Part shown: positions 2,970 through 21,067 of the stretch, one piece after another
Position numbering within the stretch: the stretch's first letter is position 1
Layout: each line of letters starts with the position of its first letter
NCBI GenBank assembly: GCA_947446925.1
Contig: CANFHU010000011.1
Location: forward strand, 1-64,000
DNA from: Flavobacteriia bacterium
Lineage (GTDB): Bacteria; Bacteroidota; Bacteroidia; Flavobacteriales_D; Crocinitomicaceae
Direction of reading: 5' to 3'
Length of the DNA: 64,000 nt
Made by a program: the position numbers and the translations under genes
The notes under the pieces: generated by a model
What the model was told of the DNA's origin: nothing
What the model saw: the letters and a program-made list of their open reading frames with translations, nothing else
The model's database searches: none

Positions 2970-3941
2970 TTATGAATTTAATTTTTCTTTTAACTCTTTA
3001 ATTTTTTGTACAAAGAAAGTCTTTTTTTCTGGAATTGTCAAGCATAATTGTTCATATGCCAAAATAGCTTTTGGATAATTACCTTGAACACTTAAAATAT
3101 TTGCTAATGTCTCTGTATATTGTAAGTTTTCAGAATCTAAACTTTTCTTTGCCTGTTTGATAGGTGAATAAAATTCTTTCTTTGGTTGACTTATTTTTGG
3201 GTCTTCTTGTATGAAATTCTCGATAATTTTGTCAACAGAATTTTCAGGTTTTTCAACTACGATAGTTTTATTTCCAACTTTTAACCAGTTGCTAAACGAT
3301 TGTCTTGATTCTTTAATTGATTTTTCTATTGGGACAGATATATCTAAAATACTTGTTTCAGAAGGAGTATCAATAGTACTAGTTTTCTCTTTTTCTATGG
3401 TTCTTTCAGGCTCAAACTCTCTTTCAAATACGCTAGAAATCGCATTCGAAATTACAGCTAGATCTAATTCTTTTTCATTGTTTATTTGAATCTCCTCTTG
3501 CTTTTCTATAACAATTTCGTCAGTTAAATAATCCTCTTGTTTAGGGTTTTCTAATTGATCTTTAGTTATAGGATTATCTTCTATTATTTCGGTAGTCTCC
3601 GTTAGATTTTCTGTTTTTGAAATTGGTTCATCTACTACTGTTTTTGCTGAAACATTCACAGACTCGGAATCAATGTCGTACAGTTCTTGCACTAAAATAT
3701 TTTCTTCCTCTTTTTCGTTTAAAATTTCATATAAACGTACACGATCTGTAATCTTATAGGCGTGTTTTGCTAACGCATCTTCTAATTCCAGCGACTGTTC
3801 TTTTGCTAATGCTTTTAAGTAAAGTAGTGAGATTAATTGTGCGTACGGATATTTTTTGGATAATTCATGCAAAACAGGAATATCACTAGATACTAGTAAC
3901 GCAGGATTTTCAATACGTAAAGCAATATCGTGTATATTCAT
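2970..3941 (-). CDS. TPR-like protein with a long acidic linker, 323 aa
   Basis: I do not know a specific function. The N-terminal 85 residues are helical and leucine-rich (HELSKKYPYAQLISLLYLKAL). The middle (about 90-245) is a low-complexity Glu/Lys/Thr/Ile linker likely to be disordered. The C-terminal 60 residues (YTETLANILSVQGNYPKAILAYEQLCL) look like one or two tetratricopeptide repeats. There is no signal peptide. It lies between lptE (1-base gap) and secG (3-base gap), a position where Bacteroidota commonly carry a TPR protein. It may be an adaptor for envelope biogenesis, but this is inference. Confidence 0.75.
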   Translation of the reverse strand: MNIHDIALRIENPALLVSSDIPVLHELSKKYPYAQLISLLYLKALAKEQSLELEDALAKHAYKITDRVRLYEILNEKEEENILVQELYDIDSESVNVSAKTVVDEPISKTENLTETTEIIEDNPITKDQLENPKQEDYLTDEIVIEKQEEIQINNEKELDLAVISNAISSVFEREFEPERTIEKEKTSTIDTPSETSILDISVPIEKSIKESRQSFSNWLKVGNKTIVVEKPENSVDKIIENFIQEDPKISQPKKEFYSPIKQAKKSLDSENLQYTETLANILSVQGNYPKAILAYEQLCLTIPEKKTFFVQKIKELKEKLNS

Positions 3942-3942
3942 G

Positions 3943-4455
3943 TTACCAATTAGATAATAATTTATTTATAATATCTTGAACGACTTGTTTATTAATCTCT
4001 TTTAACAATTCGTTCTCAACCGTTCCTAAATCTTGATCAGAATTGTAGTCCGCAAAACGAGAACAACTCACCTGCATTTCTTGTTCTTTCGGTGCAAGTA
4101 TATGAATTTTATAATTACTAGTAATTGTTAATCTGTTTTTAGCCGCATTATCCCCTGGTTGCATCGCGATAGGGGAGATCATATAACTTGAAATAACCCC
4201 TTCAATCCTAACTTCTCCGCTGTTTGGTAAGGTAGATAATTTAAGTCTGGTATTATTTTGAATACCGTCACGAATATCGTCTGCTAATTGTGATGGATAA
4301 TTAATTGGTGCATTTGGTGCATTATTCTCTAAAGTGTTAATTGAGAATATTTTCCACTCTTCAGGCATGGATCCTGTATCTTTGAAGGAGATACTGCTCG
4401 GCCAACAAGATGCTAATGTAATTAATAAAAAAAGAAAGTAGATTAAAATTCTCAT
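3943..4455 (-). CDS. lptE: LptE-family LPS-assembly lipoprotein, 170 aa
   Basis: LptE is the outer-membrane lipoprotein that plugs LptD during lipopolysaccharide insertion. The N-terminus MRILIYFLFLLITLASC is a lipoprotein signal with lipobox LASC and Cys17 as the lipidated residue. The body matches the Bacteroidota LptE pattern: YPSQLADDIRDGIQNNTRLKL, a GEVRIEGVISSY strand, and a DLGTVENELLKEINKQVVQDIINKL end. It overlaps the preceding activator gene by one base, indicating translational coupling. Conservation in this family is low, so the call rests on the signal, length and neighbourhood together. Confidence 0.85.
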   Translation of the reverse strand: MRILIYFLFLLITLASCWPSSISFKDTGSMPEEWKIFSINTLENNAPNAPINYPSQLADDIRDGIQNNTRLKLSTLPNSGEVRIEGVISSYMISPIAMQPGDNAAKNRLTITSNYKIHILAPKEQEMQVSCSRFADYNSDQDLGTVENELLKEINKQVVQDIINKLLSNW

Positions 4456-5693
4456 TACGCCTGAATGTTATATTCCTTAATTTTTCGATACAAAGTACGT
4501 TCTGAAATACCTAGTTCTTCTGCTGCATATTTACGTTTTCCACGGTGCTTCTCCAAAGCCTTTTGAATTAATTCTTTCTCCCTATCTTCCAAAGATAAAG
4601 ATTCTTCTACTTCTACATGTTCGTGAAAATCCTGTTGGAAAGCAGCATCATTCTTTACAAAGTTTGTACCTTCTATTGTTGGTTGATAAATATGTGTCTC
4701 AACCGTGTTTGGCGACATCTCATTATACATGCGATTTATCATGGCTGATTGTTCAGAATTTAATTGAATATCAGTTCCTTTATTAATCAATTCATGCACC
4801 AGCTTTTTTAAATCATTTAAATCACTTTTCATATCGAAAAGAAACTTGTACATAATATCTCTTTCTGAAATAGATTCTTCGGTTTTAGAAATTACACTTG
4901 GTAAATTTTCACTTACAACTGGAAGATAACTTTGGATAGTTAACGCATCTATTTCTCGCTTACTTTCAATGACAGAAATTTGTTCAACCAAATTTTTTAA
5001 TTGACGAATATTTCCGGACCAAGTGTAATTTTCTATAATTGCAACAGCTTCTGGTGTAAGTCTTATTGCTGGCATTCTATATTTCTCTGCAAAATCATTT
5101 GCAAACTTTCGGAATAACAAGTTAATATCTTCTTTTCGTTGTCGTAAAGCGGGTAATGTAATCGGAACAGTACTCAAACGGTATAATAAATCTTCTCTAA
5201 ATTTTCCAGAAGATATTGCTCTTTGCATGTTCTCATTGGTAGCTGCTACAACACGAACATTGGTTTTGATGACTTTGGAAGAACCAACTCGAATAAATTC
5301 TCCGGTCTCCAATACACGTAGCAAACGAACTTGGGTTTGCATTGGTAACTCTGCTACTTCATCCAAAAATAATGTGCCTCCATTTGCAACTTCAAAATAC
5401 CCTTGTCTACTTCCGCTTGCACCTGTAAAAGAACCTTTTTCATGACCAAACAGTTCAGAATCAATAGTTCCTTCTGGGATTGCGCCACAGTTAACTGCAA
5501 TATATTCTCCGTGTTTTCGAGCACTTAATTGATGAATAACTTGGGGAATAATTTCTTTACCGGTACCACTTTCTCCTGTTACCAAGATCGAAATGTCTGT
5601 CGGTGCTACCTGTGCTGCGATTTCCAACGCACGATTCAACAAAGGAGAATTTCCTATTATACCAAACCGCTGCTTAATTTGTTGTAAATTCAT
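4455..5693 (-). CDS. Sigma-54-dependent transcriptional activator without a receiver domain, 412 aa
   Basis: This is an AAA+ bacterial enhancer-binding protein that remodels sigma-54 RNA polymerase. Visible motifs are Walker A GESGTGKE (40-47), the sigma-contacting loop GSFTGA (87-92, Ser for the usual Ala), Walker B GGTLFLDE (105-112), the sensor region ATNENM with FREDLLYRLS, and a C-terminal Fis-type helix-turn-helix (AAEELGISERTLYRKIKEY). It starts almost directly with the ATPase domain and has no response-regulator, GAF or PAS domain, so any signal must act through partners or expression level. It is embedded between miaB and lptE with 3-base and 1-base junctions. Confidence 0.95.
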   Translation of the reverse strand: MNLQQIKQRFGIIGNSPLLNRALEIAAQVAPTDISILVTGESGTGKEIIPQVIHQLSARKHGEYIAVNCGAIPEGTIDSELFGHEKGSFTGASGSRQGYFEVANGGTLFLDEVAELPMQTQVRLLRVLETGEFIRVGSSKVIKTNVRVVAATNENMQRAISSGKFREDLLYRLSTVPITLPALRQRKEDINLLFRKFANDFAEKYRMPAIRLTPEAVAIIENYTWSGNIRQLKNLVEQISVIESKREIDALTIQSYLPVVSENLPSVISKTEESISERDIMYKFLFDMKSDLNDLKKLVHELINKGTDIQLNSEQSAMINRMYNEMSPNTVETHIYQPTIEGTNFVKNDAAFQQDFHEHVEVEESLSLEDREKELIQKALEKHRGKRKYAAEELGISERTLYRKIKEYNIQA

Positions 5694-5696
5694 AAG

Positions 5697-7139
5697 TTAT
5701 AAAGTTACCACTTCGCCAATCAATGTGGCAGAAGTACAATCTTTGATTTTTACCTGAACATAGGAGTTGATAGGTAAGTCTGTTTTTGGAAATACTACCT
5801 TAATATTGTTTTGATTTCGACCAACTTGATGTTCTTCAGAACGTCTAGAAAAACCTTCAATCAATACTTCTTGTGTTTGTCCAACAAATTCTTTGTGTGC
5901 TTTTAAGGAGTTTTTTTGTTGTAAATTAATGACTTCAGTTAATCGCGCTTTTTTTATCTCTTCTGGTACATCATCCTTGAATTTACGTTCCGCTAATGTT
6001 TTAGGACGCTCAGAATACATATACATATATGCAAAATCAAATCGTGCTTCTTGCATAATTGAAATGGTATCTTGGTGCTCTTCGTCAGTTTCTCCACAAA
6101 AACCTGTAATAATATCTGTTGAAATAGTACAATTTGGTAAGATACGACGTATAGCACCAACTCTTTCCAAAAACCATTCTCTTGTATATCCTCTATTCAT
6201 ACGATACAACATTTCGTTGTTTCCGGATTGAACAGGTAAATGTATATGATTCGCTATATTAGAATATTTCGCCATCGTTTCTAAAACTTCATCCGTCATA
6301 TCTTTTGGGTGTGAAGTGGAAAAACGAATACGTAACAATGGATGAATCAAGGCAACCATTTCTAATAATTCTGCAAAATTAGTGGTTGGTAAATTTTGAT
6401 CCTTAATCTCACCTTTACTGGTCATGTTCCAACGATAACTATCAACATTTTGTCCTAATAAAGTAATTTCTCGGTAACCATTATTAAATAAGGTAGTGCA
6501 TTCTTCTACAATGGTTTTAGGGTCACGAGAACGTTCTCTACCTCGAGTAAATGGAACTACACAAAATGAGCACATATTGTCGCATCCTCGTGTTATACTA
6601 ACAAAGGAACTTACTCCTTTCTCGTCCAAACGAACAGGACTAATATCTGCATATGTTTCATCCCGAGATAACAATACATTAACAGCTTTATGACCACTTT
6701 CAACTTCTACAATTAAATTTGGTAAATCTCTGTAAGAATCTGGTCCTGCAACTATGTCGACTAATTTTTCTTCTTCTAATAGATTTTGTTTTAAGCGCTC
6801 TGCCATACAACCTAAAACTCCAACGATTAATCCGGGTTGTCTTTTCTTACGATTTTTAAAATCATTCAAACGCATGCGTACTTTTTGTTCCGCATTTTCA
6901 CGGATCGAACAGGTATTTAACAAGATAATATCTGCCTCAAGTTCGTCACGTGTTGTACTATATCCTTCCTGACTTAATATGGACGCAACTACTTCGCTAT
7001 CAGAAAAGTTCATGGCACAACCATAACTTTCTAAAAATAATTTTTTACCATTCAAAGGAACACGCGTTTCAACTTGCATTGCTTCTCCTTGTCTTTTCTC
7101 ATCAATGACTTTGCTTGCTCCTAAATCAATGTTGCTCAT
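5697..7139 (-). CDS. miaB: tRNA-2-methylthio-N6-isopentenyladenosine37 synthase MiaB, 480 aa
   Basis: This radical-SAM enzyme adds the 2-methylthio group to i6A37 of tRNAs reading UNN codons. The N-terminal UPF0004 domain carries cluster cysteines C41, C77 and C111. The radical-SAM motif CDNMCSFC supplies C186, C190 and C193. FLQ-type motifs [10 protein letters not shown] and [12 protein letters not shown] follow, and a C-terminal TRAM domain ends GEVVTL. The first 30 residues are an extension often seen in Bacteroidota. It is the first gene of the operon running to secG, with a strong promoter at 7162-7193. Confidence 0.97.
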
Positions 7140-7161
7140 TTTAGTTATTTTTAATAGTATG

Positions 7162-7193
7162 CAAATTTATCAAAAAAATCAATTTATGCCAAA
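7162..7193 (-). promoter_or_regulatory. miaB operon promoter
   Basis: On the minus strand TTTG (7193-7190), a 20-base spacer and TAAATTTG (7169-7162) match the Bacteroidota -33/-7 consensus TTTG-N19..20-TAnnTTTG. The predicted start of transcription is about 16 bases before the miaB ATG. Confidence 0.8.
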
Positions 7194-7229
7194 ATGTCAG
7201 TTGTTAATTTTTCCAAAACTCCAACAGTT

Positions 7230-7251
7230 CGGGTGAGTCGTGACTCACCCG
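7230..7251. repeat. REP-like palindrome
   Basis: CGGGTGAGTC and GACTCACCCG form a perfect 10-bp inverted repeat around GT, preceded by GTT. It shares GTTCGGGT, the GTC-GT-GAC centre and ACCC with the copy in the groE spacer. Confidence 0.75.
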
Positions 7252-7518
7252 CAGACCCGCAGACCCGCCTCAACTTACCGCCACATCCGCCTGCTTTATC
7301 TATTCACCCTCCAAACTTTATCTACTAACCCAACTATCTATAAACACCCACCCAAAATACTATTACATACTAACTAGTCTTACCTTTAAATTTATATACT
7401 CGCTAATCACTTCCTTTTCTTGCATCAATTCGTACAATTATCAACCCTCCTTACACATTGTAACACTTTTTGTGCTTACGTCACATTACCAACTCTTTTC
7501 TCCTTTTTATACTTTCCG

Positions 7519-7550
7519 TTTGTTTTTCAATTTTAAATCACCTTATTTTG
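7519..7550 (+). promoter_or_regulatory. topA promoter
   Basis: TTTG at 7519-7522 is followed after 21 bases by TATTTTG (7544-7550), one base short of TAnnTTTG. The predicted start is about 22 bases before the topA ATG. Confidence 0.6.
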
Positions 7551-7578
7551 CAACGCATTTATATAAAGCAATATTTAC

Positions 7579-9939
7579 ATGGCTAAGAATTTAGTAATTG
7601 TTGAGTCCCCTGCAAAAGCAAAAACAATTGAAGGGTATCTCGGAAAAGATTTTGTTGTTAAATCTAGTTATGGTCACGTTCGAGACTTAGCATCCAAAGG
7701 TATGGCGATAGAAATTGAGAATAATTTCCATCCAAACTATGAAGTTTCTGCGGATAAAAAAGCAGTAGTCGCAGAACTGAAAAAATTGAGTAAGGAAGCA
7801 GAGATTGTTTGGCTAGCAACGGATGAGGACCGCGAAGGAGAAGCAATTTCTTGGCACTTATATGAAACGTTAGGACTAGCAAAAAAGGAAACAAGAAGAA
7901 TTACCTTTAACGAAATTACTAAGTCTGCAATTACGAAGGCAATTGAAAATCCAAGAGGGATTGATATTAATTTAGTAGATGCGCAACAAGCAAGAAGAGT
8001 ATTGGATAGATTAGTTGGTTTTGAACTTTCGCCAGTATTATGGAAAAAAGTAAGGCCAAGTTTGTCTGCTGGTCGTGTGCAATCTGTCGCTGTTAGATTA
8101 ATCGTAGAAAGAGAAAAGGAAATTCGTGCGTTTGCATCTGAAACTTTTTACAAAATCCAAGCTGTTTTTTCAAAAGGGAAAGAGAAAATTAAGGCAGATA
8201 TCGCTCGAAATATTGGAACCCTTGAAGAAGTGCATACGTTGGTAGAGAAGTTTCGGGATACTGATTTTAATGTCCTTGATGTTCAAACAAAGCCTGCAAC
8301 AAAAACACCTGCTGCTCCATTTACTACATCTACGCTTCAACAAGAGGCAAGTTTAAAATTAGGATTTTCTGTTTCTCGAACAATGACAGTAGCGCAGCGT
8401 TTGTATGAAGCTGGAAAAATTACCTACATGAGAACGGATTCGGTAAATTTTTCGGATACCGCTTTAAATGGCGCGAAAGCAGAAATTATAAGTGCTTATG
8501 GTGAAACGTATTCTAATCCTACAAAATATAAAACCAAAAACGCGGGCGCACAAGAAGCTCACGAAGCAATAAGACCAACCGATTTTTCAGTTCATACTAT
8601 TGCGGGTGAATCAGATGAGGTACGTTTATATGATCTAATCTGGAAACGTTCAATTGCTTCTCAAATGAGTAATGCTAAATTAGAACGTACTACTATTAAA
8701 ATTGGAAACCAGTCATTAGAAGATGTTTTTACGGCGAAAGGTGAAGTTATTAAATTTGATGGTTTCTTGAAAGTGTATCTTGCTGCGACTTTGGATGAAG
8801 AGGAAGATGAAAATTCAGACTTGTTACCGGAAGTTTTTGTTGGAGAGAAATTAGAAAGAGTTAATATTAAAGCAACTCAACGTTTTTCTAGACCTTCTCC
8901 TAGGTATGTAGAGGCATCTTTAGTGAAGAAGTTAGAAGAATTAGGTATTGGTAGACCGTCAACCTATGCGCCAACTATTTCTACAATCCAAAAAAGAGGA
9001 TATGTAGAAAAAGAAGAGAGAGAGGGAGAGATAAGAGAATATACGGTAGTAGAGTTAGTAAACGATACAATTTCGGAAGAGAAAAAAACAGAAGTTACAG
9101 GAAAAGAAAAGAATAAATTGTTTCCAACCGATATCGGTATTGTAGTAACTGATTTTTTATGTGAACACTTTGATCGTATTATGGACTACCATTTTACTGC
9201 AAAAGTGGAACAGCAATTCGATGAAATCGCACATGGTGAAATCGTTTGGACTAAAATGTTACAAGATTTTTATAGTCCATTCCATGAAAATGTAACAAAT
9301 ACCTTAGAACATTCAGATCGTGCAACTGGCGAAAGAGAATTGGGTATTCATCCGGAATCTGGAAAGAAAATAATTGTTCGTATTGGTCGCTTTGGACCAA
9401 TGGTGCAAATTGGGGATGAAAAGGAAGATGGAGAAAAACCACAATTCGCATCACTTCGAACAGGTCAAAATTTAGATTCGATGACACTTGAAGCTGCTTT
9501 AGAACTTTTTAAATTGCCTAGAACTTTAGGAGAGTTTGAAGACCTAGTTGTGAAAGCAAATGTTGGTAGATTCGGACCGTACCTTCAACATGGGAAAGCA
9601 TTTGTATCTCTTAAAAAAGAAGACGATCCGATGACGGTTTCCCTAGAGAGAGCTTGCGAGATAATCTTACAAAAAAGAGAAGATGATGCAAATAAAATTT
9701 TAAAGGTCTTCCCAGAACAAGAAGATATGCAAATTTTAAATGGTCGTTGGGGTGCATACTTGAAAGTTGGTAAGGATAATGTTAAACTTCCAAAGGATGG
9801 AAATTGGGAAACATTAACCTACGAAGATTGTGTTAAATTGCACAAAGAACAACCAGCAGCTAAGAAAACAGGTCGATTTGCAAAGAAAGTAGCACCAAAA
9901 GCTACTGCTAAGAAAGCACCTGCTAAAAAGAAAAAATAA
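7579..9939 (+). CDS. topA: DNA topoisomerase I, 786 aa
   Basis: TopA is a type IA topoisomerase that relaxes negative supercoils. The Toprim domain begins at once (VIVESPAKAKTIEGYLG, Glu9) with its acidic cluster DEDREGE at 82-88. The catalytic tyrosine is Y283 in KITYMRTDS, and RPTDF and GIGRPSTYAPTI follow in order. The C-terminus has zinc-free topoisomerase repeats (RIGRFGPMVQ, ANVGRFGPYLQHG, NGRWGAYLKVG) and a Lys/Ala tail of about 25 residues like those that bind DNA or RNA polymerase. Length is normal. The next gene begins 23 bases downstream. Confidence 0.98.
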   Translation: MAKNLVIVESPAKAKTIEGYLGKDFVVKSSYGHVRDLASKGMAIEIENNFHPNYEVSADKKAVVAELKKLSKEAEIVWLATDEDREGEAISWHLYETLGLAKKETRRITFNEITKSAITKAIENPRGIDINLVDAQQARRVLDRLVGFELSPVLWKKVRPSLSAGRVQSVAVRLIVEREKEIRAFASETFYKIQAVFSKGKEKIKADIARNIGTLEEVHTLVEKFRDTDFNVLDVQTKPATKTPAAPFTTSTLQQEASLKLGFSVSRTMTVAQRLYEAGKITYMRTDSVNFSDTALNGAKAEIISAYGETYSNPTKYKTKNAGAQEAHEAIRPTDFSVHTIAGESDEVRLYDLIWKRSIASQMSNAKLERTTIKIGNQSLEDVFTAKGEVIKFDGFLKVYLAATLDEEEDENSDLLPEVFVGEKLERVNIKATQRFSRPSPRYVEASLVKKLEELGIGRPSTYAPTISTIQKRGYVEKEEREGEIREYTVVELVNDTISEEKKTEVTGKEKNKLFPTDIGIVVTDFLCEHFDRIMDYHFTAKVEQQFDEIAHGEIVWTKMLQDFYSPFHENVTNTLEHSDRATGERELGIHPESGKKIIVRIGRFGPMVQIGDEKEDGEKPQFASLRTGQNLDSMTLEAALELFKLPRTLGEFEDLVVKANVGRFGPYLQHGKAFVSLKKEDDPMTVSLERACEIILQKREDDANKILKVFPEQEDMQILNGRWGAYLKVGKDNVKLPKDGNWETLTYEDCVKLHKEQPAAKKTGRFAKKVAPKATAKKAPAKKKK

Positions 9940-9962
9940 TTTAATTACGTATCGTCACCAAA

Positions 9963-11114
9963 ATGGATATTTCTTACTTTTTTCAACCTATTTCAGTTGA
10001 TTCGTTGGAGGATCAATCTATTGCTACTACCATACTTGCACATACGGAAGGAAATTTTCCAGATATGGAAAAAGGTGGAATCGCAATTTTTTATTGCCCT
10101 GAATTTAGAAATGGTATTCAAGAATATCAAAATCAAAAGGATGAACGATTTAGAACGGAGTTTTATAACTTATTTCCAAGTGCACATTGGGAAAAAAAAA
10201 TATATGATTTAGGAAATATATTACCAGGTGAAAAAATAGAAGACACTTATTTTGCTATTTCTCACGTCATCGAAGTATTGGTGAAAAATGAAATTATTCC
10301 AATAATAATAGGTGGTTCACAAGATTTATTATTCCCTCTTTATAAAGGCTATGAAAACCTAGAACAATCCGTAAATATCACCACGATTGATTCTAATATG
10401 GATTTTGGAGATACCGAAAATAAACCAAAATATGATGGTTACTTGAGTTCTATTTTGGTACATAATCCATCGTTCTTATTCAACTATTCGATCATTGGTC
10501 TTCAAGCTCCATTTGTGAAGCAGTCTGAAATGGATTTGTTTGAAAAATTATACTTTGACACCTTGAGACTTGGTGAATTTAACGCGGATTTTAGAAAAGC
10601 AGAACCATTAATTCGAAATGCGGATATTTTAAATATAGATCTATTTTCAATAAAAGCATCTGATTTTAAAGGAGATATATATAATTCCCCAAATGGTTTT
10701 TATGCAGAACAAATTTGTCAAATAGCAAAATACGCAGGTATAAGCGATAAACTTACTGCTTTTGCTTTATTTAATCTTTTTCCTAATGTTGCTTCAACTG
10801 CATCCAGTCAATTAATTGCACAAATTCTTTGGTATTTTATAGACGGAGTTGCAGACCGTAAAGGGGATTTCCCAAAATGTGCTAAAACGGAATATACAAA
10901 ATTCATGGTAAATCATGAAGATTTTGATAACGACTTAATTTTCTACAAAAGCAATAAATCTCAAAGATGGTGGATGGAGGTTCCTCATCCAAAACAAGCC
11001 CATTCACGATACGATAGACATTATCTAATCCCATGTAATCAAGAAGATTATGATTACGCTTTAAAAAATGAAATCCCCGATCTTTGGTGGAGAACATATC
11101 AAAAACTAAAATGA
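9963..11114 (+). CDS. Ureohydrolase-fold (arginase/formimidoylglutamase-like) protein lacking metal ligands, 383 aa
   Basis: Homologues between topA and the gliding operon in flavobacteria are usually labelled formimidoylglutamase or arginase. The fold signatures are present but the metal-binding residues are not. The GGDHS position reads GGSQD (117-121). The DAHxD position reads DSNMD (143-147), with Asn for His. The SxDxDxxDP position reads NIDLFSIKASD (224-234), with the second Asp replaced by Phe. The C-terminus (WWMEVP, LIPC, IPDLWW) is a conserved extension absent from classical arginases. It has no signal peptide, so it is cytosolic. It is probably not an active binuclear-manganese hydrolase; the role is unknown. 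The T9SS operon starts 209 bases downstream with its own promoter. Confidence 0.85.
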   Translation: MDISYFFQPISVDSLEDQSIATTILAHTEGNFPDMEKGGIAIFYCPEFRNGIQEYQNQKDERFRTEFYNLFPSAHWEKKIYDLGNILPGEKIEDTYFAISHVIEVLVKNEIIPIIIGGSQDLLFPLYKGYENLEQSVNITTIDSNMDFGDTENKPKYDGYLSSILVHNPSFLFNYSIIGLQAPFVKQSEMDLFEKLYFDTLRLGEFNADFRKAEPLIRNADILNIDLFSIKASDFKGDIYNSPNGFYAEQICQIAKYAGISDKLTAFALFNLFPNVASTASSQLIAQILWYFIDGVADRKGDFPKCAKTEYTKFMVNHEDFDNDLIFYKSNKSQRWWMEVPHPKQAHSRYDRHYLIPCNQEDYDYALKNEIPDLWWRTYQKLK

Positions 11115-11225
11115 CAAAAAACTTTTAGAATAGCATATTTCGTAAAAAAAAGAACATCTTTTTTTTCTCTGTTTTTCAAAAAGTAACAAATCATTGTTGA
11201 AAACTACACTTTTTTGAAGTGAACG

Positions 11226-11256
11226 TTGAAAATTCAACATTTTTTCCGTACTTTAG
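11226..11256 (+). promoter_or_regulatory. Promoter of the porP-gldKLMN operon
   Basis: TTG (11226-11228), a 20-base spacer and TACTTTAG (11249-11256) give one mismatch to TAnnTTTG. The -33 box lies inside a small palindrome, GTTGAA-AA-TTCAAC (11225-11238). The 5' leader then contains an 8-bp hairpin, AACCTAAA with TTTAGGTT (11258-11294). Confidence 0.6.
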
Positions 11257-11323
11257 CAACCTAAATTTAGAATTTTACAACCCTATTTTTAGGTTAACAA
11301 CTTGATAAATATAAAATTACAAG

Positions 11324-12244
11324 ATGATTAAAAATCTTCTTTTTGGTTTATTAATTATGACTGGTGCACAAGTTATGTTTGCGCAGCAAGATATATTAAT
11401 GACAAATTTTATGTTTGATAAGTTGAGAATTAACCCTGCAATAACTGGGGTAGAGGATGGTATTTCTAGTGCTATGATTTATCGTAACCAGTGGGATAAA
11501 GTTGCTGGCGCTCCAAATACAGCTATTTTTAATTGCGAAATGAATTTGAATAAAAACGCTGTAGGTGGTGCAGGTATTTCATTTTACCATGATGCGATTG
11601 GACCCATACGTCAAAATAGATTGTTGTTAAATTATTCGTATCCGTTTCAAATTGGTGAAGTAGGAGTGTTACACGCTGGAATTGGCTTAGGTTTATTGAA
11701 TTTTGGATTAGATCCTAATTGGATTCCACCAACATCTTCTGTAGATGCATCACTTCCAACCGCAAGTTCTGGAAATAATATGGATGGAAATTTTGGTCTT
11801 TATTATAAAAGTTTTAAAGGATACTTTGTAGGTTTATCCAGCGCACATTTAAATAAACCAGCAATTCACGCATCTAATTTTACCTATGAGAGACATTATT
11901 TTTTAAATGCTGGGCATCGCTTACAAAATATTTTAGGGCCTAAAAGAGATTTGGAAGTTCAACTTTTAGTCATGAGTGATTTGATAAAACATGTAGGTGA
12001 TATTAATGTACGTTATACACATGGAAATGTTTTTTATGCTGGCTTAACAGTAAGAACAACAAATACTTATTGTATGCTAGCGGGTTTTTATCCACTAAAA
12101 AACATTACCCTTGGTTACTCGTTTGATTTAAATGCAAATAGTATTTTAAGTGCCTCGAACGGTACACATGAAATTGTAATTAGATATAAATATATTGCCC
12201 CAATACCACCGTCGGAAAAATCAAAACATCCAAGGTGGTTGTAA
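11324..12244 (+). CDS. PorP/SprF-family type IX secretion outer-membrane protein, 306 aa
   Basis: A signal peptide (MIKNLLFGLLIMTGAQVMFAQ, cleaved near residue 21) is followed by the family's hallmark start QDILMTNFMFDKLRINPAITG and SAMIYRNQWD. The rest is a predicted outer-membrane beta-barrel with alternating aromatic strands, for example VNVRYTHGNVFYAGLTVR and a late ILSASNGTHEIVIRYKY. PorP/SprF proteins help place T9SS substrates such as SprB at the cell surface. Because the gene stands directly before gldK, it probably belongs to the core machine. Several paralogues are usual in a genome, so I give no SprF symbol. Confidence 0.93.
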   Translation: MIKNLLFGLLIMTGAQVMFAQQDILMTNFMFDKLRINPAITGVEDGISSAMIYRNQWDKVAGAPNTAIFNCEMNLNKNAVGGAGISFYHDAIGPIRQNRLLLNYSYPFQIGEVGVLHAGIGLGLLNFGLDPNWIPPTSSVDASLPTASSGNNMDGNFGLYYKSFKGYFVGLSSAHLNKPAIHASNFTYERHYFLNAGHRLQNILGPKRDLEVQLLVMSDLIKHVGDINVRYTHGNVFYAGLTVRTTNTYCMLAGFYPLKNITLGYSFDLNANSILSASNGTHEIVIRYKYIAPIPPSEKSKHPRWL

Positions 12245-12357
12245 ATTAAAAAAAAAATATAGATTTTTGTAACCATTTTTAAGTAATTCCGTTATATCAT
12301 AAACGCATTTGATCCTGTAGATTGTTAAATGATGTCCGGAATTTAAAACAAAGTAAA

Positions 12358-13908
12358 ATGAATAAAGTAGTTTTTTTAGGTCTTTTAAGTATTGTACTCA
12401 CAGCGTGTAGTACAAGAACTGGTCACTTAACTGGTGTTTTGGGACGGCCAACGTATCAACCGGAACTTCCATTAGGAATGGTCTATGTCAAAGGTGGTGC
12501 CTTTAATATGGGAGATGACGACCAAGATGTACCATTCTTACATAATTCGCGTAAGAAAACAGCATCTGTGCAAGCGTTTTATATGGATCAAACAGAAATT
12601 ACAAACAACGAATATCGTCAGTTTTGTGATCACGTTCGAGATTCTATGGCTCGTGAGTTGATTTATGCAAACACGGATTTAATTGAAGACGAAATTTCTG
12701 GAGAGTATATCAATTATAAAGAACGTTATTTCGACGAAAGTTCTAAGGAAATGGTAGATTATGAAGCAAGTGATCGTCCTAAAAATAGAGAATTGTTTTC
12801 CTTGAATTGGGATAAGCAGTTTAGTTATGAAGATGAAAAAATGCTGCCTATTCTAGCGGATATGTATTATCCTTCTAACGAACGTTTTTACAAAAAACGT
12901 GAAATAGATACACGTAAATTATTATACAAATACTACTGGTTAGATCTTCGTGAAGCAGCTAGACGTGGTCGAGTAGAAATAGTACCAAATGGAATTGATG
13001 GAAAAGGACAAGTTATATCCGATAATCACCGTAAATTAAGTACTCCAGCAAATCCATATAATGAGGAACCTCAAGGAATGGACCTAAATTTAGGTCACGT
13101 AAATAAAAAATTACAAAATAATGCGATTCGTGGTCACGCTGACAGATCTCGTTTTATTATTGAAGAGGTTATAAATGTATATCCGGATACTTTATGTTGG
13201 GTTAGAGATTTTACTTATGCTTTTCATGACCCAATGACAAACATGTATTTTCATCACCCAGCATATGATAACTATCCTGTTGTTGGTGTAACGTGGACGC
13301 AAGCAAGAGCATTCAGTAATTGGAGATCACATTTGTTAAATTCTTGGTTGTTAGCAATGGGTGATATGTATCTGAATGATTTCCGTTTGCCTAGTGAAAC
13401 AGAATGGGAAAGAGCTGCAAGAGGTGATTTAGCTGGTTCCCAATACCCATGGGGGGGGCCATACACGCGTAATTCCTATGGATGTTTCTTAGCTAACTTT
13501 AAACCTATGCGTGGCCGTTATCAAGAAGATGGAGGTTTCCATACAGTTAAAGCTTTCTCTTACCAACCAAATGGTTTCGGTTTATATTGTATGGCTGGTA
13601 ACGTTGCAGAATGGTGTGAAACTGCTTTTGATGAGTCTGTATATGAATTCTCAAATGATATCAACTCTGAATACAGATACGATGCGTTAGATTGGGATCC
13701 ACCGAAATTAAAACAAAAAGTATTGAGAGGTGGCTCATGGAAAGATATAGGATATTACTGTATGACTTCCACAAGATCCTATGAGTACCAAGATACTGCT
13801 AAATCATACATTGGATTCCGTAATGTAATGACCCACATGGGTAGAGGTGGTGCTGATCTATTACAAGAGGGTAGTGCAGAAGAAATTGATGAGATTGAAT
13901 TAAAATAG
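12358..13908 (+). CDS. gldK: Gliding/T9SS lipoprotein GldK (PorK), 516 aa
   Basis: GldK forms, with GldN, the large periplasmic ring under the outer membrane of the type IX secretion system. The ATG at 12358 is chosen because it gives a proper lipoprotein signal (MNKVVFLGLLSIVLTAC, lipobox LTAC, Cys17). The body is a formylglycine-generating-enzyme-like domain: GMVYVKGGAFNMGDDD, DQTEITNNEYRQF, PVVGVTWTQARAF, RLPSETEWERAARGD, YPWGG, GLYCMAGNVAEWCE, VLRGGSWKD and YIGFRNV. The fold is used structurally here. The YPWGG codons contain a run of eight G (13451-13458), very unusual in this AT-rich gene. gldL follows 45 bases later. Confidence 0.97.
   Translation: MNKVVFLGLLSIVLTACSTRTGHLTGVLGRPTYQPELPLGMVYVKGGAFNMGDDDQDVPFLHNSRKKTASVQAFYMDQTEITNNEYRQFCDHVRDSMARELIYANTDLIEDEISGEYINYKERYFDESSKEMVDYEASDRPKNRELFSLNWDKQFSYEDEKMLPILADMYYPSNERFYKKREIDTRKLLYKYYWLDLREAARRGRVEIVPNGIDGKGQVISDNHRKLSTPANPYNEEPQGMDLNLGHVNKKLQNNAIRGHADRSRFIIEEVINVYPDTLCWVRDFTYAFHDPMTNMYFHHPAYDNYPVVGVTWTQARAFSNWRSHLLNSWLLAMGDMYLNDFRLPSETEWERAARGDLAGSQYPWGGPYTRNSYGCFLANFKPMRGRYQEDGGFHTVKAFSYQPNGFGLYCMAGNVAEWCETAFDESVYEFSNDINSEYRYDALDWDPPKLKQKVLRGGSWKDIGYYCMTSTRSYEYQDTAKSYIGFRNVMTHMGRGGADLLQEGSAEEIDEIELK
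13451..13458 (+). repeat. G8 homopolymer inside gldK
   Basis: Eight consecutive G encode part of Trp-Gly-Gly in the conserved YPWGG motif. The reading frame is intact. Neighbouring glycines mostly use GGT, so GGG-GGG is atypical codon use. Confidence 0.9.
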
Positions 13909-13953
13909 AATACAATTTGTAGATAAGTAAAGTTAAATTTAATAAGTAGAGTT

Positions 13954-14823
13954 ATGAAGATTTTTGGAATGGTCCCTGGTAGTTTGAAATGGAAAACTTT
14001 TATGAAGTATTTCTATGGGTATGGAGCAGCTGTTGTAATCCTTGGTGCGTTATTTAAAATCATGCACTGGCCTGGAGCTTCTGCCATGCTTATCACTGGT
14101 CTTCTAGTGGAGGTAGCGATTTTCATTATGTCTTCATTTGAACCTCTACCACACGATTATCACTGGGATTTAGTATATCCTGAATTAGCCGAAGTACACG
14201 AACCAGGTCATGGCGAGGATGATTTACATGATTTAGTTGAAGAAGGACACAATGAACATGATAAACATGTAGAAGCAGCTCCTGTTAATACTGGTTCTGG
14301 TTTAACACAACAGTTAGATTCTATGTTGGCTGAAGCAAAAATTGACTCAGAGTTACTTGAAAGTCTAGCTTCTGGAATGAGAAGTTTAGGTGAAAATGCA
14401 AATTCATTACAAGGTATATCTTCAGCAGTTTCTGCAACTGATTCATATGTATCAAGTTTACAAGCTGCTTCGGATAAAGTTTCTTCTTTGTCGGATGCAT
14501 ATGAAAGAGCTTCACTTGCTATTTCTGGTATGACTTCAACTTCACAAGAAGGAGAATCTTTTGGAGAGCAAATGCAAAAAGTATCTAGAAATTTAGCTGC
14601 ATTAAACAATGTATATGAATTGCAATTGAAAGGGTCATCTGCGCATTTAGAAGCAACAGAGAAATTCCAATCACAAGTAACTGAAATGATGCAAAACTTA
14701 TCTGCATCTACAGAGGATACAAGACTTTATAGAGAAAATATGGCAATGCTTTCTAAAAACCTTACAGATTTAAATAATGTGTATGGTAATATGTTGAAAG
14801 CAATGACTATCACTAGAGATTAA
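13954..14823 (+). CDS. gldL: T9SS/gliding motor protein GldL, 289 aa
   Basis: GldL is the inner-membrane stator ring that, with GldM, turns proton flow into rotation. Two transmembrane helices lie at about 20-35 and 42-62. Helix 1 holds YGYGAAVVILGALFKIMHWPG with H38. Helix 2 holds LLVEVAIFIMSSFEP with a membrane-embedded glutamate at E53 and a second at E63, matching the conserved protonatable residues of the family. The rest is a cytoplasmic, acidic and Ser/Ala-rich coiled-coil region ending in a conserved helical stretch (SKNLTDLNNVYGNMLKAM). The gene sits between gldK and gldM. Confidence 0.97.
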   Translation: MKIFGMVPGSLKWKTFMKYFYGYGAAVVILGALFKIMHWPGASAMLITGLLVEVAIFIMSSFEPLPHDYHWDLVYPELAEVHEPGHGEDDLHDLVEEGHNEHDKHVEAAPVNTGSGLTQQLDSMLAEAKIDSELLESLASGMRSLGENANSLQGISSAVSATDSYVSSLQAASDKVSSLSDAYERASLAISGMTSTSQEGESFGEQMQKVSRNLAALNNVYELQLKGSSAHLEATEKFQSQVTEMMQNLSASTEDTRLYRENMAMLSKNLTDLNNVYGNMLKAMTITRD

Positions 14824-14872
14824 CATCTCACATTTAATTTATCAGATTATTAACTTTTAATACTATAAGAAA

Positions 14873-16645
14873 ATGGGAGGTGGTAATGAGTCACCAAGGC
14901 AGAAGATGGTAGGTATGATGTACCTTGTACTTACCGCACTTTTAGCCTTGAACGTATCTAAATCAATTTTGGAAGCGTTTGTAGCAATCGAAGAAAACAT
15001 TCAGGTTGCAAATGAAAACGAGTATGCTCGTGGTCAAGAAAAAAAAGAAGAATTACAAGAAGTTGCTGAAGATAAATCTAATCCAGCTTTAAGTGAAAAA
15101 GCATCTGTCTTTTTAAAAGATGTAGAAGCAATTGAGAAAAAAACAGCTGAAATGATTGTCTTCTTAGATGGTTGTAAGTTGGACATAATGATGCAATGTC
15201 AAGAAGCGATTACAAAAGATGGTAAAAACGCTCCTGGAATTCCGGAAGAGGAAGCTTTGATTCACGATGAATATGATGCTAAAAAAGCCCCTTGTAAACC
15301 TATCCGTATGCATTTAGGACACGTAATGGGTCCAGATAAATACGATGAGCCTATGCTTATCATGGGTATTAATGAGGATATCAAGAGTCCTAAAGGTAAA
15401 GGGAAAGAATTGTGGGAAAATTACAACAAATACCGTAAAGAACTTGTTGAAATTTTAGTGAAAAGTGCATCTACTCCTGAAAATCAATATAGCCTAAAAT
15501 GTGCTGATATTAATAAATTCGAAGGAAATAAAGATTTAGAGAAGCAGGTCGACGCAATGATTAAAAAAGGAAAGATAAGTCCAGATGAAGTTGCTGAGGT
15601 TAAAAAGATTTATATTTCTATGTCTAAAAATGAATTCTATAAAGTACACGATATTGAAGGAGTTCATTGGGTAGGTAAAACTTGGGACCACAATCCACAA
15701 GTTGCAGGTATTGCATCTTTATCTGCTTTGGAAAAAGAAGTATTGACCGCTCGTGCAGATGCTATTGCATTGATTCGTTCAAGAGTTGGTGGTGGTGATT
15801 TCTCATTCAATAAAGTTCAAGGTTTTGCGAATGGTCAATTACTTGCAACTAAAGGTGATGAAGTGGAAATTAGTGTCATGATGGCTGCATTCGATTCCGA
15901 CAAACAACCGGAAGTAAAAGTTACTTCTGGAGGAGGAAAAGTTGAACCTGCTGTAGATGGTCAAGCGAAAGTGAAAGTTACTGCTAGTGGTTCTGGTGAA
16001 ATGAAAGTGAAAGGTACTGTAATGATTCGTAAGAAAAATGGTACTCCTGTTGAAAAAGAATGGGAACATACAATTACAATTCAGGAACCTTCTGGTTCTA
16101 TCTCCTTACCAGATATGACTGTACTTTATCAAGGTTATGCTAATAAAGTAGTTGGTACTGCAGCTGGATTTAACCAATGTGATTTATTAGGTACAGGTGT
16201 ATCTATTCAAAAACAAGGTGCTATTTGGATTGCTACACCAACTGTAGGGCCTGGTAAAACTTGTCAAATTGCTATTAAGGGTACAAATACAGTTACCAAA
16301 AAATCAGCAAACTTAGGATCATTTACATTTAAGGTTAAACCTTTACCTCCTGCAGCAATCTATTTTGCTGGTAAAGGTACTGGTGAAGCTGCTCCTAAAA
16401 CAGCAATGGGTCTTTCAGCTAAATTCCCTCCATCAATTGATTTACAAGGTATTAATTTTACAGTGCTTGATTGGAAAATGGATTTCAAAGGGCGTACAGT
16501 TAAAGGTCAAGGTAATGTTATTGATGCCGCTGCTTCTGGATTGTTAAAACAAGCAAAACCTGGAGATATGGTTACTTTCTTGTGTAAATATACAGATGGT
16601 AAAACAGGAGCCAAATTTGGTGCGTGTACCGTAACTCTAAATTAG
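14873..16645 (+). CDS. gldM: T9SS/gliding motor protein GldM, 590 aa
   Basis: GldM couples the GldL motor to the outer-membrane GldK-GldN ring. The N-terminus MGGGNESPRQKMVGMMYLVLTALLALNVSKSIL is the family's single transmembrane anchor (helix about 12-28). The remainder is the long periplasmic shaft of four domains, with a helical D1 region rich in Lys/Glu followed by beta-rich D2-D4 (QGYANKVVGTAAGFNQ, FTFKVKPLPPAAIYFAGKGTG, CTVTLN end). At 590 aa it appears longer than the roughly 510-530 aa of better-known GldM proteins. The extra length seems to be in D1, which also has several cysteines. It is followed after 20 bases by gldN. Confidence 0.96.
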   Translation: MGGGNESPRQKMVGMMYLVLTALLALNVSKSILEAFVAIEENIQVANENEYARGQEKKEELQEVAEDKSNPALSEKASVFLKDVEAIEKKTAEMIVFLDGCKLDIMMQCQEAITKDGKNAPGIPEEEALIHDEYDAKKAPCKPIRMHLGHVMGPDKYDEPMLIMGINEDIKSPKGKGKELWENYNKYRKELVEILVKSASTPENQYSLKCADINKFEGNKDLEKQVDAMIKKGKISPDEVAEVKKIYISMSKNEFYKVHDIEGVHWVGKTWDHNPQVAGIASLSALEKEVLTARADAIALIRSRVGGGDFSFNKVQGFANGQLLATKGDEVEISVMMAAFDSDKQPEVKVTSGGGKVEPAVDGQAKVKVTASGSGEMKVKGTVMIRKKNGTPVEKEWEHTITIQEPSGSISLPDMTVLYQGYANKVVGTAAGFNQCDLLGTGVSIQKQGAIWIATPTVGPGKTCQIAIKGTNTVTKKSANLGSFTFKVKPLPPAAIYFAGKGTGEAAPKTAMGLSAKFPPSIDLQGINFTVLDWKMDFKGRTVKGQGNVIDAAASGLLKQAKPGDMVTFLCKYTDGKTGAKFGACTVTLN

Positions 16646-16665
16646 ATTACTTAAAAATTTAAGTT

Positions 16666-17700
16666 ATGAAAAAGTTATTTTTATACATCTTTGCTTTTGC
16701 TTCATTTACAGGTGTAAATGCTCAAAACGAAATAAATGGTGGTCCAGTAAATATTCCTGCGGAAGGGGTTATTGATGGTATTTATATTCAAGAGCACATT
16801 CCTACAAAGCGACTTGTTCCATACGAATTTGTTCGTGAAGCAGATGTTATGTTTCAAAAACGTATTTGGAGATCGATAGACATGCGTGAAAAGATTAACC
16901 ATGCAATGTATTATCCAATGGATGAATTTACTGGTGCTGGTGATTGGGTAAAAAACACTACTCGCTGGTCTTTATGGACAGTTATCCGTCAACATATCAT
17001 GAAAGGTGATTTAGTGATGTACGATAATGAAAATCCTAATAATATTGGTTCTTACGATGGGGATTTATTTAAATACCCAGTTCAATTAGCACCAGGTAAA
17101 AGTTATGATACAGATACAACTTTCAAAGATAATGTACTTCGTTTGATCGCAACAACGACTCAAAAAATGAATTCTGATGGTACACCGATGGTAAAAACAG
17201 ATCCAATGACAGGTGAGCCAATTATGGAGAATGATAAAAATGGTGTTCCTCAACAAGTATTGGCTGATCCAGATATTCGTTGGGTCAAATCGGAAGACAT
17301 TGTTGAATATCGCTTAAAAGAAGATTGGTTTTTTGATAAAGAACGTTCTCAATTTGATGTTAGAATTTTAGGATTAGCGCCTGTAGTATATGATGCAGAA
17401 AGAGATGCTAAAGGAGATATAACTACTATTAAAGGTAAAAAAATCTTATTTTGGTTATATTTTCCTCACTGTCGTTTTGTATTTGTCAACTACAACGTTT
17501 ACAATCCGAAAAATGATGCACAATGGATGAGTTTTGATGATTTATTTCAAAAACGTCAATTTAATAGTACTATCTACAAGCAATCGAATACATTTGATCG
17601 TACAATTGACACTTACAAGTCAGGTATTGATGCATTATATGAATCTCAAAAAATTACAGAAGAATTTAGAAATTTTGAACACGATTTGTGGCATTTCTAA
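16666..17700 (+). CDS. gldN: T9SS/gliding protein GldN (PorN), 344 aa
   Basis: GldN is the periplasmic partner that forms the ring with GldK. A signal peptide (MKKLFLYIFAFASFTGVNA) leads to the family core: VPYEFVREADVMFQKRIWRSIDMREKINHAMYYP, RWSLWTVIRQHI, WFFDKERSQFDVRILGLAPV and KILFWLYFPHCRFVFVNYNVYNPKNDAQ, ending near EEFRNFEHDLWHF. All these are diagnostic. It is the last gene of the operon and is followed by a clear terminator at 17725-17756. Confidence 0.97.
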   Translation: MKKLFLYIFAFASFTGVNAQNEINGGPVNIPAEGVIDGIYIQEHIPTKRLVPYEFVREADVMFQKRIWRSIDMREKINHAMYYPMDEFTGAGDWVKNTTRWSLWTVIRQHIMKGDLVMYDNENPNNIGSYDGDLFKYPVQLAPGKSYDTDTTFKDNVLRLIATTTQKMNSDGTPMVKTDPMTGEPIMENDKNGVPQQVLADPDIRWVKSEDIVEYRLKEDWFFDKERSQFDVRILGLAPVVYDAERDAKGDITTIKGKKILFWLYFPHCRFVFVNYNVYNPKNDAQWMSFDDLFQKRQFNSTIYKQSNTFDRTIDTYKSGIDALYESQKITEEFRNFEHDLWHF

Positions 17701-19709: not shown

Positions 19710-20723
19710 ATGATACAAAGAATTTTTTTATATTTTTCAAGTCTTCTATTCATTTTTACTTCTTGTACAAGTAATCGTTTGGATGTAGATGTATCTGATT
19801 CTAATGTGAAAATCTCATTTGTTAATTTAGATTCTTTGTTAATACATACTCCCAAAATCAGTATTCCTAAGGTTTTAGAAGTTTATGCAGTAAGTTCAGA
19901 GGGTGTTTTAGCTTATCAGTTGATTCATTGTTTGGGTATTGGTGGTTTTAAAGATTCTAGTAGTTTAAGCAGAATAGAATTGTTTCGTAAAGATCCATAT
20001 ATAGAACGTTTAGAATCTCAAATTTCATCGTCTTTTACCTCAAAAAATAATATGCAATTTCAATTAATCGATGGATTTAAGCATTTGCATTTTCATTTAG
20101 CTTCGGTTCCTTTACCTAAAGAAATCTATTATATTAATTCTTTATTTGTTTCAAATGTTTATTGTACAAACAAAGAAATTGGGATAGGTTTAGAACGATA
20201 TTTAGGTCCTAAAGAAGAAGTGATTAAAGAATTACCTTCTCAAGAATTTTTCCAATGGATGAAGGACGGAATGTTAAAAGAGTACATTCCAAGAGATGTT
20301 ATATCGGAATGGATTGCAGCCAATATCGTAAAAGAAGTAAATGGAACTTTTGCTGAAAAAATGATACGATGGGGTAAAATTATTTATTTGACAGAATCTG
20401 CATTTCCTGAAATGGAAAAACATACATTATTGAGATATACCAAAAATGGATATGCTTGGGCAGAACATAATGAATCTTCTATCTGGAAATACATAGTAAA
20501 TCAGAATTTATTGTTTTCTAAAAATGAAAGGGACCATGCTAATTTTTTACATGAAGGACCGTTTACTGTTGGTTTACCTGAAAAAAGTCCAGATCGCTTG
20601 GGTCAATTTTTAGGTTGGAAAATTGTACATGAGTTTATGGAACAAAACGAATCTATATCTTTTAATGAACTAGTTAAATTACCGTATAACACGATTTTAC
20701 AGTCGTATGAAATTGAAGAATAA
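19710..20723 (+). CDS. gldB: Gliding motility lipoprotein GldB, 337 aa
   Basis: GldB is an outer-envelope lipoprotein required for gliding in Flavobacterium. The signal MIQRIFLYFSSLLFIFTSC has lipobox FTSC with Cys19. The mature part has family features: YLGPKEE, PRDVISEWIAANIVKE, EMIRWGKIIYLTESAFP, the YAWAEHNESSIWKYIVNQNLLFS segment, and the C-terminal PFTVGLPEKSPDRLGQFLGWKIVHEFM, which resembles a degenerate zincin region. The stop overlaps the gldC start by one base (TAATG), so the two are translationally coupled. Confidence 0.95.
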   Translation: MIQRIFLYFSSLLFIFTSCTSNRLDVDVSDSNVKISFVNLDSLLIHTPKISIPKVLEVYAVSSEGVLAYQLIHCLGIGGFKDSSSLSRIELFRKDPYIERLESQISSSFTSKNNMQFQLIDGFKHLHFHLASVPLPKEIYYINSLFVSNVYCTNKEIGIGLERYLGPKEEVIKELPSQEFFQWMKDGMLKEYIPRDVISEWIAANIVKEVNGTFAEKMIRWGKIIYLTESAFPEMEKHTLLRYTKNGYAWAEHNESSIWKYIVNQNLLFSKNERDHANFLHEGPFTVGLPEKSPDRLGQFLGWKIVHEFMEQNESISFNELVKLPYNTILQSYEIEE

Positions 20724-21067
20724 TGAGTAAAGAAATTGTAAAAACATCCAAAATTGAAGTAAATGTTGGTTTAAATGAAAATCATGTTCCACTTAAAATG
20801 AAATGGAGTGCAACAGATGGTCAGGTAGAAAATCAAGATACCAAAGCAATGATGTTGGCTATGTGGGATGCAACAAAAGGCCATACATTAAAGATCGATT
20901 TATGGACGGAGGATATGTCTGTTGAAGAAATGAAACAGTTTTTTCATCAAACTCTATTGACTATGGCTGATAGTTTTGAGCGTGCTACAGGAGAAACATT
21001 AATTTGTGAAGATTTACGTGATTATTGTTTCCATTTTGCAGATAAAATGAATGTCTTACCAGAATAA
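20723..21067 (+). CDS. gldC: Gliding motility protein GldC, 114 aa
   Basis: GldC is a small soluble protein that supports gliding and T9SS stability in Flavobacterium. It has the family's start (EIVKTSKIEVNVGLNENHVPLKMKWSA), a LKIDLWTEDMSVEEMKQFFHQTLLTMADSFERAT helix and the end LRDYCFHFADKMNVLPE. It has no signal peptide. It is coupled to gldB by a one-base overlap, and the next gene begins 17 bases inside its 3' end. Confidence 0.95.
   Translation: MSKEIVKTSKIEVNVGLNENHVPLKMKWSATDGQVENQDTKAMMLAMWDATKGHTLKIDLWTEDMSVEEMKQFFHQTLLTMADSFERATGETLICEDLRDYCFHFADKMNVLPE

Follow-up and report, generated by a model that had tools for sequence, protein, structure and literature searches.

The metal-binding motifs of arginases and other ureohydrolases are given as GGDHS, DAHxD and SxDxDxDP in the literature (PMC6988801). 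Among described systems, formimidoylglutamase, or HutG (TIGR01227; PDB 3m1r and 1xfk), stands closest to the gene analyzed here, which we call URH for ureohydrolase-fold protein: HutG is its best NCBIfam match, the two share fold and order of motifs, and they align over profile positions of about 40 to 305. URH differs from HutG in its score for the family model, in lacking three of the six metal ligands, in an extra tail of about 83 residues and in occurring with no hutU match in a number of genomes. Hai and colleagues are said to have described in 2015 an arginase-like protein of Trypanosoma brucei without a manganese cluster; it too has the ureohydrolase fold with no binuclear manganese site, but it is eukaryotic, whereas URH is bacterial, shows a half-site pattern and carries a new C-terminal domain. 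Among the metformin hydrolases, two reports describe MetCb as the metal-free partner of MetCa, with five of six ligands changed (PMC11271267), and the MefH-beta subunits as inactive (PMC11399263). Both resemble URH in having the ureohydrolase fold with metal ligands lost, and both are retained as protein partners. Unlike MetCb, which has an active paralogue adjacent to it, URH keeps the aspartates of one metal site (site A), has no such paralogue adjacent and is found class-wide.

Literature searches by enzyme and fold names, locus tags and accessions returned no study of the role of the URH family among the top-ranked results, and yet the gene is present in 233 of 247 genomes of its class, down to genomes of 1.7 Mb. 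Annotation pipelines presumably name URH formimidoylglutamase, and if they do, a false step would enter metabolic reconstructions. One genome is described as having no histidine degradation 'except for formiminoglutamase' (PMC11278836), and our guess is that this formiminoglutamase is URH. The half-lost site of URH also offers a testable case of a two-metal enzyme turning into something else, and its location warns against assigning T9SS functions from gene order alone.

Fold, metal ligands and C-terminal extension

The window is the whole stretch of DNA under analysis, 64,000 nucleotides of a Flavobacteriia bacterium contig (CANFHU010000011.1, positions 1 to 64,000 of the forward strand). URH and its elements lie in it as follows.

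9963..11114, + strand: URH, ORF of 383 aa with metal-B ligands lost (ORF list and translation, PF00491, family alignment)
10311..10325, + strand: motif 1, GGSQD, residues 117-121; H101 replaced by Q120 (alignment)
10389..10403, + strand: motif 2, DSNMD, residues 143-147; H126 replaced by N145, D124 and D128 kept (alignment)
10638..10646, + strand: motif 3, DLF, residues 226-228, within NIDLFS (224-229); D232 kept, D234 replaced by F228 (alignment)
10863..11111, + strand: C-terminal extension, residues 301-383, with W336 and C358 (core-row alignment, Pfam search)

Profile searches place URH in the arginase/ureohydrolase superfamily, with a PF00491 score of 25.5 bits against the curated Pfam cut-off of 22, and 67 of the 69 members of a 69-row URH alignment match the same profile at an E-value of 0.01 or better. 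Searched against the PDB, the profile of this alignment recovers formimidoylglutamase 3m1r at 1e-13, together with other ureohydrolases. TIGR01227, the best NCBIfam match, gives URH 32.7 bits against an equivalog cut-off of 229.15, which leaves it outside HutG by that measure; judged by E-values only, 68 of the 69 alignment members match this model at 0.01 or better (best 6.6e-32). Given the PF00491 and 3m1r matches and a TIGR01227 score far under the cut-off, the fold assignment stands up and the enzyme name does not. The protein is probably cytosolic, its start having, by eye, no obvious signal sequence. An AlphaFold2 model computed with five close sequences in the alignment was poor (pLDDT 43.5), and statements about the pocket therefore rest on the family alignment.

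That alignment has 108 rows: the URH of the window and 107 homologues that represent 51 families of its class, picked among the stronger matches, with several families of weaker matches left outside it; eight HutG-like paralogues, taken from the weaker matches of the profile searches, were added. A core set of 99 rows excludes nine divergent rows from families f16 and f18, where the alignment is less certain. Ligand columns are named by what we take to be the arginase numbering (H101, D124, H126, D128, D232, D234), on the assumption that H126 and D234 are ligands of metal B only and that H101, D124, D128 and D232 hold metal A.

In the window, H101, H126 and D234 are changed to Q120, N145 and F228, and D124, D128 and D232 survive, as D143, D147 and D226. 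Four ligands are kept in 25 of the 108 rows, three in 69, two in four, one in nine and none in one; no aligned URH row has five or six, and none has both H126 and D234. The six-ligand site of the enzymes is accordingly absent from the URH of the window (3/6) and from all 108 rows (at most four), and it is complete in six of the eight HutG-like paralogues. A chance motif in URH was dropped as an explanation on the same count of rows with five or six ligands (0/108). The H101 column holds Q in 70, H in 23 and N in nine of the 108 rows; the H126 column holds K or R in 55 (54 of the 99 core rows) and His in four; Asp occupies the D234 column in seven.

Conservation differs sharply among these columns. 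Ranked over the 99 core rows, D143, D147 and D226 fall among the top 7-8% of columns and H101 at the 24th percentile, against the 81st for H126 and the 70th for D234. A metal-A-like set, [HQN]-D-D-D, is present in 89 of the 99 core rows and the complete H-D-D-D in 21, and the downstream loop retains P243 in 97/99 and G245 in 99/99. Column conservation, the [HQN]DDD pattern and the K or R at H126 together point to loss of the metal-B site and to continued selection on an acidic, site-A-like pocket.

The C-terminal extension sets URH apart in a second respect: a median of 83 residues follows column 301 in core rows, against 0-7 in the eight HutG-like rows, and a Pfam search with residues 300-383 alone gave zero matches. 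Every row of the 69-row alignment has E214, P215, R218, W336 and C358; in core rows E214, R218, W336 and C358 are present in 99/99 and C252 in 97/99. Among the eight HutG-like rows, E214 occurs in two, R218 in one and C358 in one, with P215, C252 and W336 in none. A 40-row tree splits these eight rows cleanly from URH with support of 100/99.

Compared with two relatives (L021 and L022), the URH of the window shows pN/pS values of 0.109 and 0.182, dS being high in both comparisons (1.87 and 2.06). Seven neighbouring genes span 0.012-0.105 against L021, where URH is highest, and 0.031-0.253 against L022, where only porP exceeds it. URH is under purifying selection: its pN/pS ranks high among those of the neighbours and is far below 1; gene decay was dropped on these two values. 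Catalytic residues lost under purifying selection are the mark of a pseudoenzyme, and URH has this mark, both B-site ligands being found together in 0/108 rows.

Part of what the initial annotation had read from the gene itself stands: the ureohydrolase fold, the C-terminal extension, and the GGSQD, DSNMD and DLF readings with their three changed ligands. Its statement that flavobacterial homologues beside gldK share these changes agrees with three of six ligands being changed in 10/10 gldK-adjacent loci of f17, a Flavobacterium-like family whose label is inferred from tandem gldN copies, and the scoring of ligand columns that it had proposed found no intact site in any of the 108 rows. Its claim that the metal ligands are lost went too far: D124, D128 and D232 are intact in the window, and the metal-A-like set of the core rows contradicts a total loss. 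The proposed retained pseudoenzyme is borne out as far as sequence comparison reaches, with URH kept in 233 of 247 class genomes, its ligands altered family-wide and a formimidoylglutamase role most likely excluded.

Our preferred reading, to which we give a probability of about 0.5 on the basis of these comparisons, is that URH is a class-wide core pseudo-ureohydrolase which has given up the metal-B site, kept the site-A aspartates and acquired a new C-terminal domain, and whose place beside porP-gldKLMN is inherited. The family would descend from a formimidoylglutamase- or agmatinase-like enzyme and, with H126 and D234, would have given up binuclear ureohydrolase chemistry. It would have kept the three aspartates of site A, the adjoining Q or H, the P243/G245 loop and the fold; its additions would be an E-P-x-x-R element, a conserved Cys and a C-terminal domain whose Trp and Cys are invariant. 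The remaining pocket may hold one metal ion or, in members with K or R at H126, a salt-bridged cation that stands in for metal B, and could bind a small ligand that it would not hydrolyze in the usual way. In a general cell process, the new tail would then perform a binding or regulatory task through partner contacts; URH would be co-expressed with topA, and its position beside porP-gldKLMN would reflect inherited gene order. A narrower version of this proposal is speculative and in our view rather doubtful: a near-essential core protein of the class, made together with topoisomerase I, in which the site has become a one-metal or Lys/Arg-balanced sensor and, with the Trp/Cys tail, links a guanidino- or glutamate-like metabolite to an undescribed general process.

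The same columns bear on whether URH could still be an enzyme, acting as a one-metal (site A) hydrolase or lyase on a changed substrate, at least in lineages that keep H101. The frequency of [HQN]DDD and of the P243 and G245 loop is consistent with this, and the complete H-D-D-D of 21/99 core rows makes activity with a single metal conceivable in some members. A change at H101, moreover, need not abolish function, since the solved formimidoylglutamase 3m1r shows GGDN at that position in the profile alignment. Set against these points, the columns of H126 and D234 show no constraint, K and R, which are not usual metal ligands, occupy H126 in 54/99 core rows, and the two-metal requirement is satisfied by 0 rows; we regard a surviving one-metal activity as unlikely.

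Gene order and transcription around URH

The neighbours of URH in the window are the following, with topA, porP, gldK, gldL, gldM and gldN all above their NCBIfam cut-offs.

7579..9939, + strand: topA, separated from the URH start by 23 nt; likely shares a transcription unit with URH (NCBIfam, spacing)
11226..11256, + strand: promoter-like TTG-N20-TACTTTAG upstream of porP, one mismatch (read by eye against a Bacteroidota-type consensus)
11324..17700, + strand: porP/sprF, gldK, gldL, gldM and gldN, T9SS genes; judged a separate unit from URH (NCBIfam)

Gene order from 2970 to 17700 in the window (a TPR gene, an lptE-like gene, a sigma-54 regulator gene, miaB, topA, URH, porP and gldKLMN) is common to many families of the class and forms an unusually long conserved stretch; gldB and gldC lie a few genes past gldN, at 19710-21067. 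The contig of L021 is titled Chryseobacterium gleum and encodes a URH 86% identical to that of the window; L054, of equal length and taken as the same contig, shows the porP-containing arrangement, and the organism name of this MAG may be wrong.

Across the 107 homologous loci, topA lies upstream of URH in 68, in 66 of these within 512 nt; the gap has a median of 16 nt, and there are several short overlaps. Downstream, porP or gldK follows on the same strand in 63 at a median of about 145 nt, all gaps being measured with approximated start codons. The order is not universal. URH has neither a topA nor a gld neighbour in 23/23 loci of families f14, f15, f19 and f20, each viewed over a stretch of about 15 kb. 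In f16, topA but not gld lies near URH in 3/4 loci, and in 3/5 loci of f18 a gldK-like gene is found about 2.5 kb from URH on the opposite strand; two of those loci also have porP, and the GldN of f18 lies elsewhere.

The motif before porP was read against what we take to be the Bacteroidota-type promoter consensus. For the 63 loci in which porP or gldK follows URH, the first 220 nt after URH were scanned and compared with shuffles that preserve base composition only. A relaxed form, TTG-N18-22-TAnnTT[TA]G, picked after sight of the window's own site, occurs in 30 of the 63 gaps (shuffles: 2.0, maximum 7) and in 2 of 107 coding controls, and the strict form, TTG-N18-22-TAnnTTTG, in 9 of 63 (shuffles: 1.0, maximum 5). 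Scans for sigma-70 promoters (22 vs 20.2) and for terminators (2 vs 3.3) did no better than shuffles. One study handles P. gingivalis porPKLMN as an operon that has a promoter fragment of its own (PMC5005315). The contrast between gaps of 16 nt and about 145 nt, together with the promoter-like motif before porP, argues that URH shares a unit with topA rather than with porP. That URH belongs with topA is most likely, as judged for co-transcription from spacing; read-through from URH into porP is possible.

Distribution across the class and the T9SS question

Presence and absence were assessed by profile searches for URH, GldN and hutU in 247 genomes of the class, each at least 90% complete. The URH profile matches 235 of them, of which 233 are counted as carriers: G498 (7.9e-18) and G526 (5.2e-16) were set aside, judged HutG-like by E-value alone, G524 (4.0e-25) was counted, and the remaining carriers all match at 1e-40 or better. 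GldN matches 239 genomes, 218 above cut-off, and hutU 212. The hutU matches are mostly of two kinds, frames of about 550-600 aa at roughly 1e-250 to 1e-290 and frames of 660-700 aa at roughly 1e-120 to 1e-135, just above cut-off; the latter set is perhaps a urocanase-like paralogue, so the hutU count may be too high.

A HutG would be expected to occur with the histidine utilization pathway, and 29 of the 233 carriers have no hutU match, the other 204 having one. This count and the TIGR01227 score led us to drop a hut function as the main role of URH. GldN is unmatched in two carriers (G402 and G496). The initial annotation had suggested weighing co-occurrence with gld against that with hut genes, and URH does keep closer company with GldN (2 vs 29 exceptions among 233), but this says little because most class genomes sampled have URH, GldN and hutU.

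Family f14 carries URH in 101/101 genomes, including genomes of 1.7-2.0 Mb, and GldN in 99/101. Fourteen genomes lack URH by our count. Eight have GldN and also SprA (G463, G393, G550, G429, G595, G612, G246 and G498); six have no GldN match (G468, G286, G294, G396, G526 and G645), among them the very small genomes G468 and G645 and three members of f22, with G526 probably possessing a T9SS in view of its SprA match. None of the five sampled members of f22 has URH, with or without GldN. Within the order of the window's own genome, 55 of 59 genomes have a URH match, some of them weak, and G009, G018 and G042 (90-100% complete) give only weak matches to a deeper profile, which indicates that URH can be lost. 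Among the class members of a 392-genome draw from the phylum, GldN occurs without URH in G246, G305, G411, G393 and G429, and URH without GldN in G402.

Three genomes, G402, G660 and G496 (the last 95% complete, in 130 contigs), each encode a full-length URH and give no match to GldN, GldM or SprA. For f14 the SprA result is weak evidence, since GldM and GldN are both matched in G060 and G678, which share their genera with G402 and G660, and SprA is again unmatched there. In G060 and G678, GldN lies on the strand opposite to GldM, and their T9SS is perhaps diverged or partial.

These distributions bear on the proposal, made in the initial annotation, of a non-catalytic job in T9SS or gliding. 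Its placement of the gene was right, URH lying between topA and porP-gldKLMN in the window. URH might then be a cytosolic factor for assembly or regulation of the T9SS or gliding motor, acting for instance on the cytoplasmic part of GldL as PorX acts on PorL, so that its position beside porP-gldKLMN would be functional. The long-kept gene order, in which URH is directly followed by porP or gldK at 63 of 107 loci, speaks for it, as do the gldK-like gene and porP near some f18 copies and the rarity of carriers with no GldN match (2/233). PorX binds the cytoplasmic domain of PorL (PMC5005315). In P. gingivalis delta-rel delta-rshB, the hypothetical gene PGN_1678, a candidate counterpart of URH by its number just before porP (PGN_1677), is up 3.44-fold and porPKLMN 2.1-2.8-fold (PMC6994654), which suggests co-regulation. 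A component of the secretion system would, however, be present only together with it, and URH outlives T9SS genes in the three genera of G402, G660 and G496 and is missing in several T9SS lineages, including the eight genomes with GldN and SprA; both facts make URH unlike a T9SS part. Its loci in f14, f15, f19 and f20 have no gld neighbour (23/23), topA is its close neighbour by median gap, and spacing and the promoter-like motif set it apart from porP and gldK. We consider a T9SS role improbable and the link to the T9SS most likely one of gene order, as the preferred reading of a core pseudo-ureohydrolase has it.

URH could also be a non-catalytic subunit that pairs with an active ureohydrolase in a hetero-oligomer, on the model of MetCb in metformin hydrolase. 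This reading has its precedents in MetCb and MefH-beta (PMC11271267 and PMC11399263) and a conceivable partner in a second arginase-family gene of the window's own genome (L126), complete in its six ligands, but it is very improbable, as an adjacent active paralogue of the MetCb type is lacking at all 107 loci, each with a single URH match, and 60 of 101 f14 genomes, G402 included, have no second match to the URH profile, which distant ureohydrolases could escape. On that f14 count an obligate active paralogue as partner was judged unlikely.

Several loci related to URH deserve separate mention. The f16 copies (L117-L120) are strongly diverged, reading N-S-x-S-N-D at the six ligand columns, and are adjoined, as seen by eye, by exopolysaccharide-type genes. 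URH-like genes of f18 (L121-L125) are very diverged and partly shortened, with the ligand columns mostly gone and the C-terminal half still matching. The six-ligand arginase-family gene of the window's own genome, at 1495-2481 of L126 on contig C44, belongs to another clade than URH.
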